Assembly: GCA_024398125.1 (NCBI GenBank)
Contig: JAKSJO010000003.1
Span: 1 to 43,707 of the forward strand
Length of the DNA stretch: 43,707 nucleotides
Direction of reading: 5' to 3'
From: Bacteroidales bacterium
GTDB lineage: Bacteria > Bacteroidota > Bacteroidia > Bacteroidales > UBA932
Within the stretch, counting starts at the first letter, position 1, and every line of letters begins with the position of its first letter. The position numbers and the translations under genes were made by a program. Positions 20,472 to 38,049 of the stretch are shown here, piece after piece. The notes beneath the pieces were generated by a model, which worked only from the letters and a program-made list of their open reading frames with translations, was not told the origin of the DNA and ran no database searches.

Positions 20472-21227
20472 CTACTTGCTTCTCGTAAGGTCAAGCAGGC
20501 CGTTGATGACTGTAAGAGGATGACAAGGGTTGCCAGGCAGATAGAGATCTGTATGGACCTTGTCGACATAGTGACGGTCGAGGGCAGTGTTCTCCTCGAG
20601 TGCGAAGATGCCGCCCGAGATAGCATCCGTACCGGCGAGCACGGAAATCCTCGGCTCCGGAACCGACTCCAGACAGATGTCGAGAGCCTCTGCCATATGT
20701 GCCGAGATCGGGCCTGTCACAACTACTCCGTCAGCATGGCGTGGAGAAGCCACGAACTCGATTCCGTAGCGTCCCATGTCGAAGTTTACGTTCGAGGTGG
20801 CTCCGAGTTCCCACTCGCAGCTGTTGTCGCCTGCTGCGCTTACCTGACGCAGCTTGAGCGAATGCTTGAAGATGCCTTTGATTTCTGGACGGATCGCAGC
20901 CTTGTCGACAGTTATAGGCTTATCCTCTCCTTCCTTGACGATAAGAAGCTCGCGACGGTTGGTCGCCATCTTGTAGTCGTCAGTGAAACGGATCTTCTCC
21001 GGATACTTCCTTGCACACTCACCACAGAAGGCGCACTTGCCGAGGTCGATGGAAACAGGTCCCTTGGCAATGGCGCGGCACGGACAGAGCGCAACCAGCG
21101 CGTCTTCATCGACCTTCTCGGTACTGATGACAGGACGGCCGCGGAAGATGCCCGGAACCTTTGCTTTGGTTGGATCCGGTATATATTGCTTTCCCTGATG
21201 GAATAATATGCTCAATCTATTGTTCAT
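20472..21227 (-). CDS. Ehr-type small subunit: ferredoxin domain fused to NuoB-like domain
   Basis: 251 residues. The N-terminal half carries one 4Fe-4S site: C65, C68 and C71 (C-A-F-C-G-E-C) plus C48 of the C-P-C motif; the usual fourth position after C71 is Y75. The C-terminal half aligns with HyfI/NuoB, but the proximal-cluster ligands are mostly gone. The C-x2-C pair reads D134-N-S-C137, the G-D-C-A-I position is G-T-D-A-I (D201), and the last P-G-C-P is P-G-N-P-C with the Cys moved by two residues. Electron passage through a normal proximal cluster is therefore doubtful. It is the last gene of the complex, 5 bases after the large subunit gene. Confidence 0.85.
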   Translation of the reverse strand: MNNRLSILFHQGKQYIPDPTKAKVPGIFRGRPVISTEKVDEDALVALCPCRAIAKGPVSIDLGKCAFCGECARKYPEKIRFTDDYKMATNRRELLIVKEGEDKPITVDKAAIRPEIKGIFKHSLKLRQVSAAGDNSCEWELGATSNVNFDMGRYGIEFVASPRHADGVVVTGPISAHMAEALDICLESVPEPRISVLAGTDAISGGIFALEENTALDRHYVDKVHTDLYLPGNPCHPLTVINGLLDLTRSK

Positions 21228-21232
21228 ATCGT

Positions 21233-22726
21233 CTATAGATCATGTCCGCAGTAGGACAGGTTGAAACTCTTGTTACAGATAGGGAAATCCGAAATCTCGT
21301 TGTCGCGGACGGCAAGTGCAAGCGCCATCCAGTTGTGGAATGACGGATCCTTGAACTTGTAGCGGAGAAGGTTTCCGTCAGCATCAGTAATGGCACAATG
21401 GCATATCTCGCCACGCCAACCCTCAACGAGAGATACCGCAAGACGGTCCGGCATAGGTGCATATGATGCAGTGTCTACTGTCTCGTCCAGAGGCATTGCG
21501 GCAAGCTTTGCTGCAAGAGCACGGACATAGACCATCGACTTTCTGATCTCGTTGACACGGACTGAAGTCCTGGAAAGCACGTCTCCATGATGCTTCACGA
21601 CAGGCTCAGCCTCGACAACGCTTCCCCATCCAAGGAATGGATGCGATTTTCGGATGTCACGATCAAGCCCGGAAGCACGCGCAGCCATGCCGACTGCTCC
21701 TATCGCCGAAGCCTGTTCCGTGGTTACGGTTCCTGTACGTTCGAGACGCGAAAGCGCTCCAGGGAAATGGAGCAGATGATTGCTTACTTCCTCGAAATCG
21801 CGTTCGTAGGCCTTCAGGATGCCATCAAGCTGGCTTGCAAGCTCAGCGGTAAATGGATAGTTGTTCTGGAAAGGGCGGACGCAGAACTTGCCGAGACGGT
21901 TTTCGCACCAGCACTGCATGAAGTTGATGAGAGGAGTACGCAGACGGCCATATACGGCGTTGCCGAGCTGATATGCGACATCTCCACAGATAGCCGAAAG
22001 GTCTCCGGTATGTATGGCCATGCGCTCAAGCTCAAGAGCGAGCATGCGCTCCAGTGAGGTACGCTCGCTGATCTTTGCACCACAGAGGGATTCCCAGACT
22101 GCAGCGAAAGCGCAGCCATGTCCAACCGCTGTATCGCCTGCGACATTCTCGGCCAGCATTGCACGCTGTGACAGCATTTCGCGGTCGATCATGAGATTCT
22201 CGACATCGCGATGCTGGTAACCAAGCATGATCTCAAGATGGAGGATCTTCTCGCCGTTGCATATGAATCTGAAATGACCAGGTTCGATTACTCCGGCATG
22301 GATAGGGCCCACACCGACCTCATGAAGTTCCTCGCCTTCCATCGAATAGAATGGATAGTCATCCGGGCAGCTGCGAACAGGCTTCATCCAAGGATGTCCC
22401 TTGTAGCCAAGTCCGAGCTGTTCCGAAATTTCTCGCTCGTAACGTTCGAGGGCGTTCACCTTTGCCGAAATGGACTGAAGACACTCATCCTTGATAACCT
22501 CGGTAGTGAGTATCTCGATATCATGACGCAGATCGTCAGCGACACAGGCTATCAGCCTTATCACAGAACGGCCGGTCCAGTAGCCGAAATAGTTTACGCA
22601 ATGCTTCTCGGGATGGCTGCCGCCGAGTCGTTCGACAAGCAGGTCACAGAATGGCTCGTAGTTGACTACAGGCAGATTCTTGAGTTCTACCGACTCCCCG
22701 TTCTTTATGAATATTGAATCGTTCAT
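21233..22726 (-). CDS. Ehr-type large subunit (NuoCD / HyfG-like) without Ni-Fe ligands
   Basis: 497 residues. Residues 1-110 resemble the NuoC / HycE N-terminal domain; the rest is NuoD/HyfG-like, with the strongly conserved V-G-P-I-H-A-G-V-I-E-P-G-H-F-R-F (about 138-154). In hydrogenases the Ni-Fe site is held by R-x-C-G-x-C and D-P-C-x-x-C. Here the first site reads E-N-V-A-G-D-T (A196, T199) and the second D-P-S-F-H-N (S462, N465), so all four cysteines are replaced. The protein cannot be a normal hydrogenase. It fits the energy-converting-hydrogenase-related (Ehr) group that links group 4 hydrogenases to complex I. It should sit on the cytoplasmic side of the membrane arm; the electron partner is unknown. 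Confidence 0.9.
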   Translation of the reverse strand: MNDSIFIKNGESVELKNLPVVNYEPFCDLLVERLGGSHPEKHCVNYFGYWTGRSVIRLIACVADDLRHDIEILTTEVIKDECLQSISAKVNALERYEREISEQLGLGYKGHPWMKPVRSCPDDYPFYSMEGEELHEVGVGPIHAGVIEPGHFRFICNGEKILHLEIMLGYQHRDVENLMIDREMLSQRAMLAENVAGDTAVGHGCAFAAVWESLCGAKISERTSLERMLALELERMAIHTGDLSAICGDVAYQLGNAVYGRLRTPLINFMQCWCENRLGKFCVRPFQNNYPFTAELASQLDGILKAYERDFEEVSNHLLHFPGALSRLERTGTVTTEQASAIGAVGMAARASGLDRDIRKSHPFLGWGSVVEAEPVVKHHGDVLSRTSVRVNEIRKSMVYVRALAAKLAAMPLDETVDTASYAPMPDRLAVSLVEGWRGEICHCAITDADGNLLRYKFKDPSFHNWMALALAVRDNEISDFPICNKSFNLSYCGHDL

Positions 22727-25715: not shown

Positions 25716-27542
25716 CTAGACAAAGATAAAGGTCAACATGATGGTAACGACGATGCAGATTATGCCGTAAAGCAAATACATCTGCAGATGGCCGTTCTGG
25801 AGGAACGAGAACCTGTCCATGAGACGGCGGTATGCACCGAGAGGCTTCTCGATCAGGCCGGTCTCGATGCGGTCGTAGTTCTCTGATTCCCACGATCCGC
25901 GCTCCTGAGGATAGATACCCTCTACCGGCTTGTACTCCTTATGGAAGCCCAGAAGGCCGGTAAACATATCCGCGTATGTCTTAACGAATGAAGTTGCGGT
26001 GTACTGGATGCGAGGAGTAGCCGCAGTGTAGCCGCAGCCCCAGGTTGGTCCGCTGGAAATCTTTCGCCTGCCATTGACAAGTTTCTTGATGCCGAGAAGG
26101 ATGAGAATGATGGCGACAAGTGCGATGGCAGCGATGCTGACCTTGCCCATTCCAACAGGAAGAGCCGCCACGGCTGATTCAGGGAATACTGTAATGCATG
26201 CGTCGGAAACCATTTTCAGATAGAACTGCGGGAAGAGACCGATGGAAAGCATAACAGCAGCCATCACGCCGAGAGGGAGTGTGCGGAGAAGTCCGAATTC
26301 CTTCATCTCAGGCAGCTCCGAACGTGAAGATCCGAGGAATACGATTCCGAATGCCTTGGTAAAGCAGAGAATCGCAAGACCGCCGATCATGACGAGGGCG
26401 AGAATGGCGAATGCCGCGCCGACAGCAGCCGTAGCTGGAGCACTGCCCATCCAGTCGAAGAGACCCATATAGATGAGGAGCTCGGAGATGAATCCGTTCA
26501 TCGGAGGAAGGCCGCAGATAGCGACAGCCGCGATGAGGAAGAATGCAGCCGTTGCAGGCAGCTTCTTAACGAGACCTCCGAGATGCTCGATGTCAAGGGT
26601 ATGTGCTGCATGATAAACATTACCTGCAGCAAAGAAAAGAGAAGACTTGAACAAGGCGTGATTCAAGGTATGGAGCAATGCACCGCAGAAACCGAGGCCG
26701 GCGAGGAGGCTGTTGCCCATTCCGGCACCGATGCAGCCGACACCTATGCCCATGCCGATGATGCCGATGTTCTCGATACTGTGGTATGCAAGAAGCTTCT
26801 TGAGATTGTGCTGTACGATAGCGAGCATCACACCATAGAGACCGCTGATGGCAGACACGGTAAGTATGATGCAGCCAGTCAGCATCATGTCAGGATTGAA
26901 AAGAGCGATGCTCCTCAGGATTCCGTAGATACCGATCTTGATGATGACACCCGACATTACTCCAGAGATATGTGCAGGAGCTGCAGGATGAGCACGAGGC
27001 AGCCATGTATGGAAAGGAACGAAGCCCGCCTTTACAGCAAAGCCTGCGATAAGAAGCAGGAAGTATGGGAAAGCCTCATGGCTGCCGGCGCCGGTGTGGC
27101 ACCAGGCCGACATAGCGTCGAAATCATAGGATCCGCATTTTGCGGCCAGTCCGAGGAAGCCTGCTGTAAGCAGAGCGACTGAAATATGGGACTGGATAAA
27201 AAAGTTTGCGCCGGCCTCGACAGTCTCTTTCTTCCAACTTTCAAAGATGATCAGGATGAAAGAGCTCAGAGCCATAAGCTCCCACGCCACCAGAAAGGCC
27301 AGGGCGTTGCGGAGGACGCAGAGTGACAGCATTGAAAGAAAACATACCACATAAGAGACAATATGGAGCACCAGCGCGCGGCTGTGCTCCAGATAATGCT
27401 TCATGTAGTCGGTTCCATACAATGCTCCGGCGACGAACACGAGACAGATGATTGCCATGAACCAGAGGGACAATGCATCCACTCCGACGGCAATTCCTCC
27501 GAACACGCTTCCGCCATCGAAAAGAAAACCTAAATTTTGCAT
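25716..27542 (-). CDS. Ehr/Hyf antiporter-like subunit (HyfB, NuoL type)
   Basis: 608 residues with about 14-16 helices. The channel residues are present: E88 in V-A-W-E-L-M, K171 in A-V-K-A-G-F-V-P-F-H, K202 in I-I-K-I-G-I-Y-G, and H295 with K299 in N-H-A-L-F-K-S-S-L. After the antiporter domain a cytoplasmic stretch (P-T-W-G-C-G-Y-T-A-A-T-P-R near residue 513) and a final helix follow, as in HyfB. It is the first gene of the complex. Only 33 bases lie between it and the nucleotidase gene before it, with no good promoter box, so it may be read from far upstream. Confidence 0.9.
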   Translation of the reverse strand: MQNLGFLFDGGSVFGGIAVGVDALSLWFMAIICLVFVAGALYGTDYMKHYLEHSRALVLHIVSYVVCFLSMLSLCVLRNALAFLVAWELMALSSFILIIFESWKKETVEAGANFFIQSHISVALLTAGFLGLAAKCGSYDFDAMSAWCHTGAGSHEAFPYFLLLIAGFAVKAGFVPFHTWLPRAHPAAPAHISGVMSGVIIKIGIYGILRSIALFNPDMMLTGCIILTVSAISGLYGVMLAIVQHNLKKLLAYHSIENIGIIGMGIGVGCIGAGMGNSLLAGLGFCGALLHTLNHALFKSSLFFAAGNVYHAAHTLDIEHLGGLVKKLPATAAFFLIAAVAICGLPPMNGFISELLIYMGLFDWMGSAPATAAVGAAFAILALVMIGGLAILCFTKAFGIVFLGSSRSELPEMKEFGLLRTLPLGVMAAVMLSIGLFPQFYLKMVSDACITVFPESAVAALPVGMGKVSIAAIALVAIILILLGIKKLVNGRRKISSGPTWGCGYTAATPRIQYTATSFVKTYADMFTGLLGFHKEYKPVEGIYPQERGSWESENYDRIETGLIEKPLGAYRRLMDRFSFLQNGHLQMYLLYGIICIVVTIMLTFIFV

Positions 27543-35796: not shown

Positions 35797-38049
35797 ATGT
35801 CAGCAGAAGTCAGTCTTGTCTCCCAGCTAGCCATCATCCTGATCGCAGCCGGAGTGATGACCATCATTTCCAAAGCCCTCAAGCAGCCGCTTATCCTCGG
35901 ATACATAGTCGCAGGATTCCTGGTTGGACCTCACCTGGGAATCTTCCCGCAATTCAGCCCGGAATCCGTCCATGAATGGTCGGAGATCGGAATCATCTTC
36001 CTGCTGTTCTCCCTTGGTCTGGAATTCAGTTTCAAAAAGCTTCTCAAGGTAGGAAGCAGTGCCATAATCCTTGCGGGATGCATCTTTGCAGGCATGTTCT
36101 TCCTGGGCATAACCATGGGACGAACCATGAGCTGGAGCATGATGGAGAGCATTTTCCTCGGAGGTATGCTTTCGATGAGCTCGACCACAATCATCATCAA
36201 GACATACGATGACATGAAGCTGAAGGACAAGCCATATGCTCCACTTGTATTCGGAACCCTTGTACTTGAAGACCTTCTGGCGATTCTCCTGATGGTATTG
36301 CTTTCCACCATGGCCGTTTCAAACAGTTTTGCAGGTGGTGAGATGATAATGGGCATCGCCAAGCTGGCATTCTTCCTTATTCTCTGGTTCCTCGTGGGCA
36401 TATTTGTGATCCCTACCGTACTGAAGAGGGCACACAAGTTCCTCAACGACGAGATTCTCCTCATTGTCAGCATCGGCCTCTGCTTCGGCATGGTAGCAAT
36501 AGCCAATGCCGTTGGATTCTCATCTGCGCTTGGTGCATTCGTAATGGGTTCCATACTCTCTGAAACAATCGAAGGCGAGCGCATCGAACATATCACAAGG
36601 CCTATCAAGGAGCTTTTCGGAGCCATCTTCTTCGTATCGGTCGGAATGATGATCAATCCGGGAGTCATCGGCGAGCACTGGGGATCTGTGCTGATCATAA
36701 CTATAATGACAATGGCAGGACTTGCCTCATTCTCGATCCTCGGCGTGCTTGTTGCGGGCAAGGGTCTGGACAACGCCGTCCATGTAGGTTTCAGCATGGC
36801 TCAGCTTGGCGAGTTTGCTTTCATCATCGCGGGAGTAGGCTGCAACCTCGGCGTCATGAGGGATTTCATCTACCCTGTCATCATCGCCGTATCCGTAATC
36901 AGTGCATTCGCGACACCATACGTCATAAAGCTGGGTGACCCTGCCTTGGAGCTGCTGCGCAAGAAACTGCCCCAGAACATACTGGACCGTATCGAGCAGT
37001 CTGGAGAAGCTTCAAGCGATTCCCGTGCAGAGCGCAGCGAGTGGAAGAACCTCCTTGCCGCTTATGCTCTCAGAGTAGGCCTGTACGGCGTCATACTGAT
37101 CGCTATCCTGATGGCGTCCAACCTGTATTTCGGCAAGCTGCTTGCCGCTGTCCTGCCGTCTCTGGGAGACCTTGTCTCCAGAATCATCGTCACCTTCGGG
37201 ACGCTTGCGCTGATGGCGCCATTCCTTCTTGGAATCGCGGTCAACAATGGCTCGATCAGCCGCTCCGCCCACAAGCTGCTGAGTGAAAACCGCAACGCCC
37301 AGTGGCCTATACTCGCGCTTATGCTGCTTCGCATCGCGATTGCGATGATATTCATCCTCATGGTTGTCCTGAGGCATTTTGACCTGGCTGGATGGACCGT
37401 CCTTGTCATCTTGCTCGCCGGCTTCTCATTCTTCATCGCAGCCAAGAGCTCTGTGCATAAGTTCAGCAGCCTCGAGGAACGTTTCTTCAGCAACCTCAAC
37501 GAGAAGGAGCTCTTGCAGAGAAGACGCGCTCCCGTCACCAGTACCGTGAACGACAAGATGGCCGGACACGATGTCAAGCTTGACGTCATGGTTGTAAGCC
37601 CTGATTTCGAGTACGTCGGCAAGGCTCTCAAGGAAATGCCTTTCAGAAGCGAGACAGGAGCCAATATCGTCAAGATCATACGCGGCAGCCGCTCTATCCT
37701 CATCCCTTCAGGCAACGAGCCTGTCTACCCTGGCGACAGGCTGCTCGCCGTCGGCACATCTGAACAGATTGAAGCTCTGAAGCGCTTCATGGCCGAGCGC
37801 AGTGTGGTCGCTTCCGAAAACGCCGCCGAAGACGAAGAATTCGTGGTAGAGGAAATCACCCTAAACGAAGATTCGCACCTTTGCGGCAGGACTCTCAGGG
37901 ATTCCGGAATGCGCAATGCCGGATGTACCCTTATTTCCGTGATGCGGGACGGCAAGCTGATGACCAACCCTCCTGCCGACTTCCACTTCACCGCCGGTGA
38001 CGCCGTATGGCTGGCCGGTCTCAAATCCTCGGTAGACTGGTACAGATAA
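35797..38049 (+). CDS. CPA2-family cation/proton antiporter with two TrkA-C domains
   Basis: A 750-residue membrane protein. About residues 8-385 form the 12-13 helix Na/H exchanger domain (KefB/GerN type), with the S-M-S-S-T-T-I-I-I-K and F-S-L-G-L-E-F-S segments and a G-A-F-V-M-G-S helix. Four or so extra helices follow (about 415-565), then two TrkA-C ligand domains (about 585-670 and 685-750). The NAD-binding TrkA-N domain of KefB/KefC is missing, so control by glutathione or NAD is unlikely. TrkA-C domains often bind cyclic dinucleotides or other small ligands. It should exchange K+ or Na+ for protons. It has its own promoter and no neighbour in its unit. Confidence 0.9.
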   Translation: MSAEVSLVSQLAIILIAAGVMTIISKALKQPLILGYIVAGFLVGPHLGIFPQFSPESVHEWSEIGIIFLLFSLGLEFSFKKLLKVGSSAIILAGCIFAGMFFLGITMGRTMSWSMMESIFLGGMLSMSSTTIIIKTYDDMKLKDKPYAPLVFGTLVLEDLLAILLMVLLSTMAVSNSFAGGEMIMGIAKLAFFLILWFLVGIFVIPTVLKRAHKFLNDEILLIVSIGLCFGMVAIANAVGFSSALGAFVMGSILSETIEGERIEHITRPIKELFGAIFFVSVGMMINPGVIGEHWGSVLIITIMTMAGLASFSILGVLVAGKGLDNAVHVGFSMAQLGEFAFIIAGVGCNLGVMRDFIYPVIIAVSVISAFATPYVIKLGDPALELLRKKLPQNILDRIEQSGEASSDSRAERSEWKNLLAAYALRVGLYGVILIAILMASNLYFGKLLAAVLPSLGDLVSRIIVTFGTLALMAPFLLGIAVNNGSISRSAHKLLSENRNAQWPILALMLLRIAIAMIFILMVVLRHFDLAGWTVLVILLAGFSFFIAAKSSVHKFSSLEERFFSNLNEKELLQRRRAPVTSTVNDKMAGHDVKLDVMVVSPDFEYVGKALKEMPFRSETGANIVKIIRGSRSILIPSGNEPVYPGDRLLAVGTSEQIEALKRFMAERSVVASENAAEDEEFVVEEITLNEDSHLCGRTLRDSGMRNAGCTLISVMRDGKLMTNPPADFHFTAGDAVWLAGLKSSVDWYR

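Follow-up and report, generated by a model that had tools for sequence, protein, structure and literature searches.

What can a hydrogenase-like complex do once the residues that should hold its active-site metals have gone? Energy-converting hydrogenase-related (Ehr) complexes are described as lacking [NiFe] binding sites and an assigned function, with about half of Nitrospirales genomes encoding them (PMC12342949). They are also reported to lack Ni and Fe ligands, with a hypothesised FDH-Ehr link and with Mbx cited as a hydrogenase-related complex (PMC6349859). Ehr subunits are abundant with formate in Geobacter sulfurreducens, where their role is described as never investigated (PMC7894505), and a role in pH homeostasis is considered possible in Methylacidiphilum (PMC6688271). 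We analysed an Ehr locus of a Bacteroidales bacterium (UBA932; GCA_024398125.1) on contig JAKSJO010000003.1, positions 1 to 43,707 of the forward strand. This whole stretch of 43,707 nucleotides is referred to as the window. The genome measures 2.34 Mb and is 97.6% complete.

A six-gene Ehr operon

A first-pass annotation had read one open reading frame of the window as a hydrogenase-like large subunit accompanied by five further subunits. The frame does encode such a protein on the minus strand, and the companions are in place: six minus-strand genes run from position 27542 to 20472, separated by gaps of 1–12 bases, in the order HyfB-like, HyfC/NuoH-like, HyfE-like, HyfF-like, large subunit and small subunit (Table 1). 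Pfam and NCBIfam place all six products in the hydrogenase-4/complex I superfamily, the NCBIfam matches shown all being below their curated cut-offs. In sequence searches, the closest solved relatives of the large, small, HyfB-like and HyfC-like subunits belong to formate hydrogenlyase (7z0s), and the closest solved match of the HyfF-like subunit is 6u8y_H. The combination of replaced Ni-Fe cysteines, group-4-type large and small subunits and NuoH-, HyfE- and antiporter-like subunits agrees with the earlier assignment to the Ehr class.

Table 1. Features of the Ehr operon, with positions in the window
Feature	Position	Strand	Evidence
HyfB-like antiporter-type membrane subunit, 608 aa	25716..27542	-	PF00361 E 4e-54; NCBIfam hydrogenase 4 subunit B, below cut-off
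HyfC/NuoH-like membrane subunit, 300 aa	24810..25712	-	PF00146; matches HycD 7z0s_D
HyfE-like membrane subunit, 209 aa	24174..24803	-	PF00420; NCBIfam hydrogenase 4 membrane subunit, below cut-off
HyfF-like antiporter-type membrane subunit, 477 aa	22739..24172	-	PF00361; top NCBIfam match is hydrogenase 4 subunit F, below cut-off
Large subunit of NuoC/NuoD, HycE type; 497 aa, Ni-Fe cysteines missing	21233..22726	-	PF00346 E 9e-28; PF00329 slightly below cut-off
L1 site E193-N-V-A196-G-D198-T199, replacing (E)-R-x-C-G-x-C	22130..22150	-	Alignments; D198 in 154/154 Ehr rows
D460-P-S-F-H-N-W466, equivalent of hydrogenase R-A-P-S-Y-x-N, no Ni-Fe ligand site	21329..21349	-	Alignments with solved relatives and group-4 hydrogenases
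True L2 site N485-K-S-F-N-L-S491-Y-C-G494, replacing D-P-C-x-x-C	21245..21274	-	Alignments with solved relatives and group-4 hydrogenases
Small subunit of NuoB/HycG type, 251 aa, with a ferredoxin-like half fused at the N-terminus	20472..21227	-	PF01058 E 2e-18; HycG 7z0s_G E 1e-15
Remaining [4Fe-4S] site C48, C65, C68, C71	21015..21086	-	Kept in 67/67 first-set rows
Former N2 positions D134 and C137 (N2-bearing relatives have C-x-x-C)	20817..20828	-	Alignments
Former N2 position D201	20625..20627	-	Alignments
Former N2 position N233	20529..20531	-	Alignments

All four Ni-Fe ligands of the large subunit are replaced

Neither of the group 4 [NiFe] hydrogenase motifs, R-x-C-G-x-C and D-P-C-x-x-C, is present in the large subunit. 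At the first, E-N-V-A-G-D-T with A196 and T199 occupies the place of the hydrogenase motif, exactly as annotated. The second had been assigned to D-P-S-F-H-N (S462, N465), about 30 residues away from the true site, which is C-terminal to it. We rejected that assignment, since the segment aligns with 'raatyanw' of HycE, 'reptfpn' of MbhL and 'rapsfvn' of Nqo4, and, in 10 group-4 hydrogenases from Bacteroidales genomes (L180-L189), with R-A-P-S-Y-x-N or a near variant of it; by these alignments, the R-A-P-S-Y-x-N type motif is a general motif of the superfamily. The conclusion that all four ligands are lost stands, with S491 and G494 (bases 21245-21256) as the second pair: columns 196, 199, 491 and 494 read C-C-C-C in 10/10 hydrogenases and A-T-S-G in the window, and D-S/G-V/I-D in six NuoD-like rows.

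To place the window protein among its relatives, 80 loci were kept out of 259 found (the first set). Across the resulting 81 large-subunit rows, two of which end before position 491, no cysteine occurs at 199, 491 or 494, and one occurs at 196 only in L070 and L082; one row has A in place of G494. The absence from the window is therefore no sequencing error. More distant Ehr-like rows read SSSG (L178), STSG (L131) and SSSE (L137) at these columns. On this basis, the complex should not bind Ni-Fe. The view that it is not a hydrogenase gains further support from the genome, in which a search for HypD (PF01924; completeness 97.6%) found none. No [FeFe] hydrogenase was found there either. HypD was likewise absent from 34 of 46 Ehr-positive Bacteroidales genomes and present in 12; these are 46 of the 48 strong-match genomes described below, two with weaker or partial matches being left out.

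The small subunit lacks N2 and one ferredoxin cluster

N2 is the relay cluster common to complex I and group-4 hydrogenases. Alignment of the small subunit with HycG and MbhJ showed that C-x-x-C has become D134-x-x-C137, G-A-C has become G-T-D201 and P-G-C-P has become P-G-N233-P, so that the four N2 columns read DCDN in the window, against CCCC in N2-intact rows. In the first set, the small subunit reaches 200 aa or more in 67 rows (window included), while 11 loci have no small-subunit match and 3 a truncated one; D134 is found in 63 of the 67, D201 in 57 and N233 in 63. The genome contains one PF01058 and one PF00346 gene, both in the operon, and a search for a second NuoB or NuoD homologue found none, indicating that it holds no other N2 carrier of these families.

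The ferredoxin half is also reduced, with only the C48/C65/C68/C71 set left out of two [4Fe-4S] sites. We take this remaining set to be the counterpart of the complex I cluster nearer N2. It is complete in 77 of the 78 N2-lost rows of the wider sample presented below, the exception (L140) lacking the whole ferredoxin half. Two features were taken as signs of two ferredoxin clusters, namely a pair of cysteines ahead of C48 and a further cysteine within 72-78; by simple count, 43 of 55 N2-intact rows have both, versus 2 of 78 N2-lost rows, and the other 12 N2-intact rows lack one or both. An intact N2 with two ferredoxin clusters is typical, though not a stated defining trait, of most Ehr sampled outside the window clade, and the window has neither. 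The loss of the N2 relay and of one ferredoxin cluster implies that the usual electron route is interrupted in this clade, and, as far as its residues tell, the usual chain cannot deliver electrons to the old active site in N2-less Ehr. This weakens the earlier picture of a complete machine that oxidises or reduces something at that site.

In four Bacteroidales MAGs (loci L045, L046, L048, L075 and L099-L102), the small-subunit gene lies elsewhere in the genome, away from the large-subunit gene. It was searched for and not found in the L058 genome.

N2 appears to have been lost more than once

We widened the sample with searches of the window's order (198 genomes), family (199) and phylum (296), and of the phyla of the L082 (148) and L081 (145) genomes, the loci being the best matches of each search. 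This yielded 150 small and 163 large subunits. Nine rows without a large subunit or cut at N2 were dropped (L068, L099-L102, L118, L128, L136 and L156), leaving 141 in which the two subunits and the four N2 columns could all be read; setting aside eight distant Ehr rows, all CCCC, left 133. These counts include near-duplicates, and the two genome collections drawn on may share species.

The N2 columns read CCCC in 55 of the 133 rows and otherwise in 78, comprising 75 Bacteroidota-type rows (window and L004 included) and three from Verrucomicrobiota. The Bacteroidota-type states are DCDN (53), DADN (6), DAAN (5), DGDN (4), DNDN (3), DTDN (2), DTAN (1) and DVDN (1); those of Verrucomicrobiota differ (L140 TCDD, L081 NDCW, L153 SEEW). 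CCCC is kept in eight Bacteroidota rows (L170-L177). In a large-subunit tree of 96 of the 141 rows, the N2 state has to change four times, and starred branches force no fewer than three of these changes; the reconstruction is a quick one with SH-aLRT support only, rooted on the eight distant rows, one of which is very long-branched (L137). L170, with CCCC, clusters with Bacteroidales-type N2-lost rows (support 100*). N2 is ancestral in the superfamily; the direction of change in the tree depends on this and on the chosen root.

L004, a record under the label Fibrobacterales, has an N2-less Ehr of Bacteroidales type (63% identity), reflecting either transfer or mis-binning. One verrucomicrobial genome has two tandem Ehr operons (L202:3397-18021), and a similar tandem occurs in L205. 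The first small subunit of the L202 tandem reads TCDD, without ferredoxin half and N2, and the second has full cysteine sets.

Pocket residues and membrane arm are conserved irrespective of N2

Five residues in the former Ni-Fe loops, D198, N485, K486, S487 and S491, are kept in 78/78 N2-lost rows; in N2-intact rows, the first four are each found in 55/55 and S491 in 54/55. Over all 154 Ehr rows, D198 is invariant (154/154), as are N485, K486 and S487 where readable (152/152), followed by S491 (151/152) and C484 (146/152). None of the five is the majority residue in the hydrogenase or NuoD comparison rows. Residues conserved in at least 95% of Ehr and unlike both majorities also include D460, W466, Q171, N268 and C484; entries at 97-118, where the comparison rows are mostly gapped, were left uncounted. 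H239 is common to the window protein, hydrogenases and NuoD. Even the L140/L202 module, whose small subunit lacks the ferredoxin half and the N2 cysteines, retains the pocket residues.

Comparing the N2-intact and N2-lost sets, 85 large-subunit columns carry the same residue in at least 95% of both, and no column is fixed at this level for one residue in one set and another in the other. The small subunit has just two columns that differ in this way, 134 (C/D) and 233 (C/N). Since the N2-intact set is defined by those cysteines, only D134 and N233 are informative in this contrast. Each is present in 96% of the N2-lost set, where 54 of 78 rows retain C137; of the 75 rows of Bacteroidota type, 22 have A, G, N, T or V at position 137 and 6 have A at position 201. 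The N2-lost set is mostly one clade, and its conservation is therefore partly shared ancestry.

The membrane arm was assessed through the charged residues that superfamily alignment predicts for the ion path, with the N2-lost group defined by locus, thus taking in loci whose small subunit was unread. In the HyfB-like subunit, E88, K171, H295, K299 and E354 are found in 71/71 rows of this group and 19/19 of the other; of the 71, 13 have N and one has C in place of K202. In the HyfF-like subunit, K328 and E383 (74/74), K210 (73/74) and E124 (72/74) are kept in the N2-lost group, E383 being K in 2/19 intact rows; N occupies the position of the next lysine of other antiporter-type subunits. E183, R186, D190, D191, H195, E197, H202 and E203 of the HyfC-like subunit are present in 65/65 N2-lost-group and 19/19 other rows.

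The dN/dS ratios between the window and its nearest relative, L003, are 0.037 (B), 0.012 (C), 0.021 (E), 0.053 (F), 0.034 (large) and 0.012 (small), at dS values of 0.70-1.33; L005 is too distant for dS. The six subunits are under strong purifying selection.

Two HyfB-like genes, and hence three antiporter-like subunits per operon compared with two in the window, occur in 16 of the 80 loci (L008, L011, L012, L017, L026, L029, L033, L035, L036, L037, L039, L041, L042, L049, L050 and L081). The window itself also encodes a Na+/H+ exchanger-type protein with TrkA_C domains (35797-38049, plus strand).

Distribution and genomic context

Strong Ehr matches (>400 bits; the next scores 208) were retrieved from 48 of the 198 genomes of the order. 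The family search gave none in the 18 other genomes listed for the window's genus, indicating a patchy presence. No exclusion between Ehr and complex I was seen in that search, NuoCD-size frame matches occurring in some strong-Ehr genomes and not in others. RnfC exceeded the cut-off in the window genome and in 33 of the 46 Ehr-positive Bacteroidales, the other 13 having weak matches only; where RnfC is present, a ferredoxin economy probably is too.

No neighbour was widely shared among the first 80 loci. When their flanking ORFs were clustered, the largest group spanned 12 loci, at differing distances, and is ABC-transporter-like by eye; closely related loci account for most of the smaller groups. 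A gene combining HTH_17 and PTS_EIIA_2 domains was found close to the HyfB-like gene at 17 of 23 extended loci (L079, L081, L082, L197-L200, L203, L204, L206-L209, L211, L212, L214 and L215), ten of which are profile seeds and four of which have weak scores; Pfam assigned the domains on five of the 17 genes. L081 is N2-less. The gene was not found in L003-L078, where the flank is missing in many. It has the look of a dedicated regulator. A gene for a SulP-family transporter comes immediately after that for the Ehr small subunit in the locus surrounding L170 (L196:6114-7898).

What N2-less Ehr may do

We favour, tentatively and with a little less than even confidence, the reading of N2-less Ehr as a stand-alone Hyf-type ion-translocating membrane complex, with its peripheral arm as gate or conformational driver. 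Ions (H+ with Na+ or K+) would move through the HyfB- and HyfF-like subunits. The single rim cluster would sense ferredoxin or exchange electrons with it, and the D198/K486 pocket, together with the acidic loop of the HyfC-like subunit, would relay the change in charge into the membrane. With its other parts looking well preserved, the complex may move ions without the usual passage of electrons. Against a gate, the near-invariant rim-cluster cysteines (77/78) argue for a remaining redox role, and the conserved pocket residues could be structural.

An unusual redox path is the main rival, although we consider it rather unlikely. The complex would still be an oxidoreductase coupled to ion pumping, in which ferredoxin reduces the remaining cluster and the acceptor is reached at the rim or via a non-standard cofactor held by D134, D201 and N233, such as a mononuclear metal or an Asp-ligated cluster. 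Besides the rim cysteines, the RnfC distribution, with the ferredoxin economy it makes probable, is consistent with this, as is the retention of C137 in most N2-lost rows; the near-fixation of D134 and N233 means that the N2 pocket may hold another cofactor. However, the substitutions at C137 and D201 in 22 and 6 of the 75 Bacteroidota-type rows, and the different residues used in the verrucomicrobial losses, count against it. Moreover, by the geometry of complex I, without N2 the rim cluster would be too far from the pocket for fast tunnelling.

By analogy with the CO2-hydrating NDH-1 complexes, the old Ni-Fe pocket might instead host non-redox chemistry (for example, CO2 hydration or small-acid handling) coupled to ion movement. 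The strict, Ehr-only polar set of D198, N485, K486, S487 and S491 would suit such a role, and the SulP gene adjoins an N2-bearing member (L170) of the Bacteroidales-type tree group. Yet this neighbour was identified in one locus, and the first 80 loci have no widely shared neighbours; we regard this option as improbable. It is likewise improbable that the complex is an ordinary, ferredoxin-linked Ehr in which the N2 change is harmless drift: gene order and the other five subunits do resemble those of other Ehr, but D134 and N233 are nearly fixed and the loss recurs on the tree. A decaying relic, to which the loss of several redox sites and the patchy presence might point, can practically be dismissed, being contradicted by the selection test and by matches to every one of the six subunits at 57 of the 80 loci, with contig ends cutting many of the others.

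Returning to the ion-translocating reading, the loss of N2 at least three times with an unchanged pocket suggests that the role of the pocket probably never needed N2 electrons, even in N2-bearing Ehr. For L153 and L140, a second Ehr module with N2 cysteines lies alongside, and their losses may therefore be tolerated through a partner; the L081 genome has two further, weaker NuoB-type matches. A bolder generalisation, possible but on balance doubtful, is that no electrons are transferred through the complex in a whole clade of complex-I-family machines. Their hydrophilic arm would have turned into a gate, either non-redox or with a single cluster, which would drive or control the translocation of ions; a new D198/K486/S491 site would replace the Ni-Fe centre and, by extension, oxidoreductase activity at that site would also be lacking in N2-bearing Ehr from other phyla. 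The prediction that the old active site is independent of N2 electrons narrows the open question of the role of Ehr. Nature has here run an experiment on how such enzymes couple chemistry to ion pumping, in a conserved family that repeatedly discarded N2 while keeping its membrane machine and the loops of the old active site.

Comparison with known systems

The Ehr class itself is already known; the apparently new element is the loss of N2 with the rest kept. No mention of N2 loss in Ehr was found in the accessible portions of the open-access literature searched, which is weak evidence of novelty.

Among solved complexes, formate hydrogenlyase (PDB 7z0s) provides the nearest counterparts HycE, HycG, HycC and HycD; in contrast to the window, which has neither set, HycG carries the N2 cysteines and HycE the L1 cysteines as well as a cysteine opposite S491. 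Pyrococcus Mbh (PDB 6cfw) and Mbs/Mbx (PDB 6u8y), the source of the best HyfF-like match, belong to the same superfamily, but MbhJ keeps the N2 cysteines that the window small subunit lacks. Complex I (NuoB/NuoD; Nqo4, 2fug) is of the same family and shares H239, whereas the window has no N2 ligands and has G197 at the position of a NuoD tyrosine, presumably that of the quinone site. Compared with Mrp-type antiporters, the charged residues of the antiporter-like subunits are present, cation exchange being only predicted. The Ehr of Geobacter (ehrABCDLS), Nitrospirales and Methylacidiphilum, compared by description, are alike in having a large subunit without Ni-Fe ligands and a HyfB/C/E/F-like membrane part; the window operon would differ from them in additionally having dispensed with the N2 ligands and one ferredoxin cluster.
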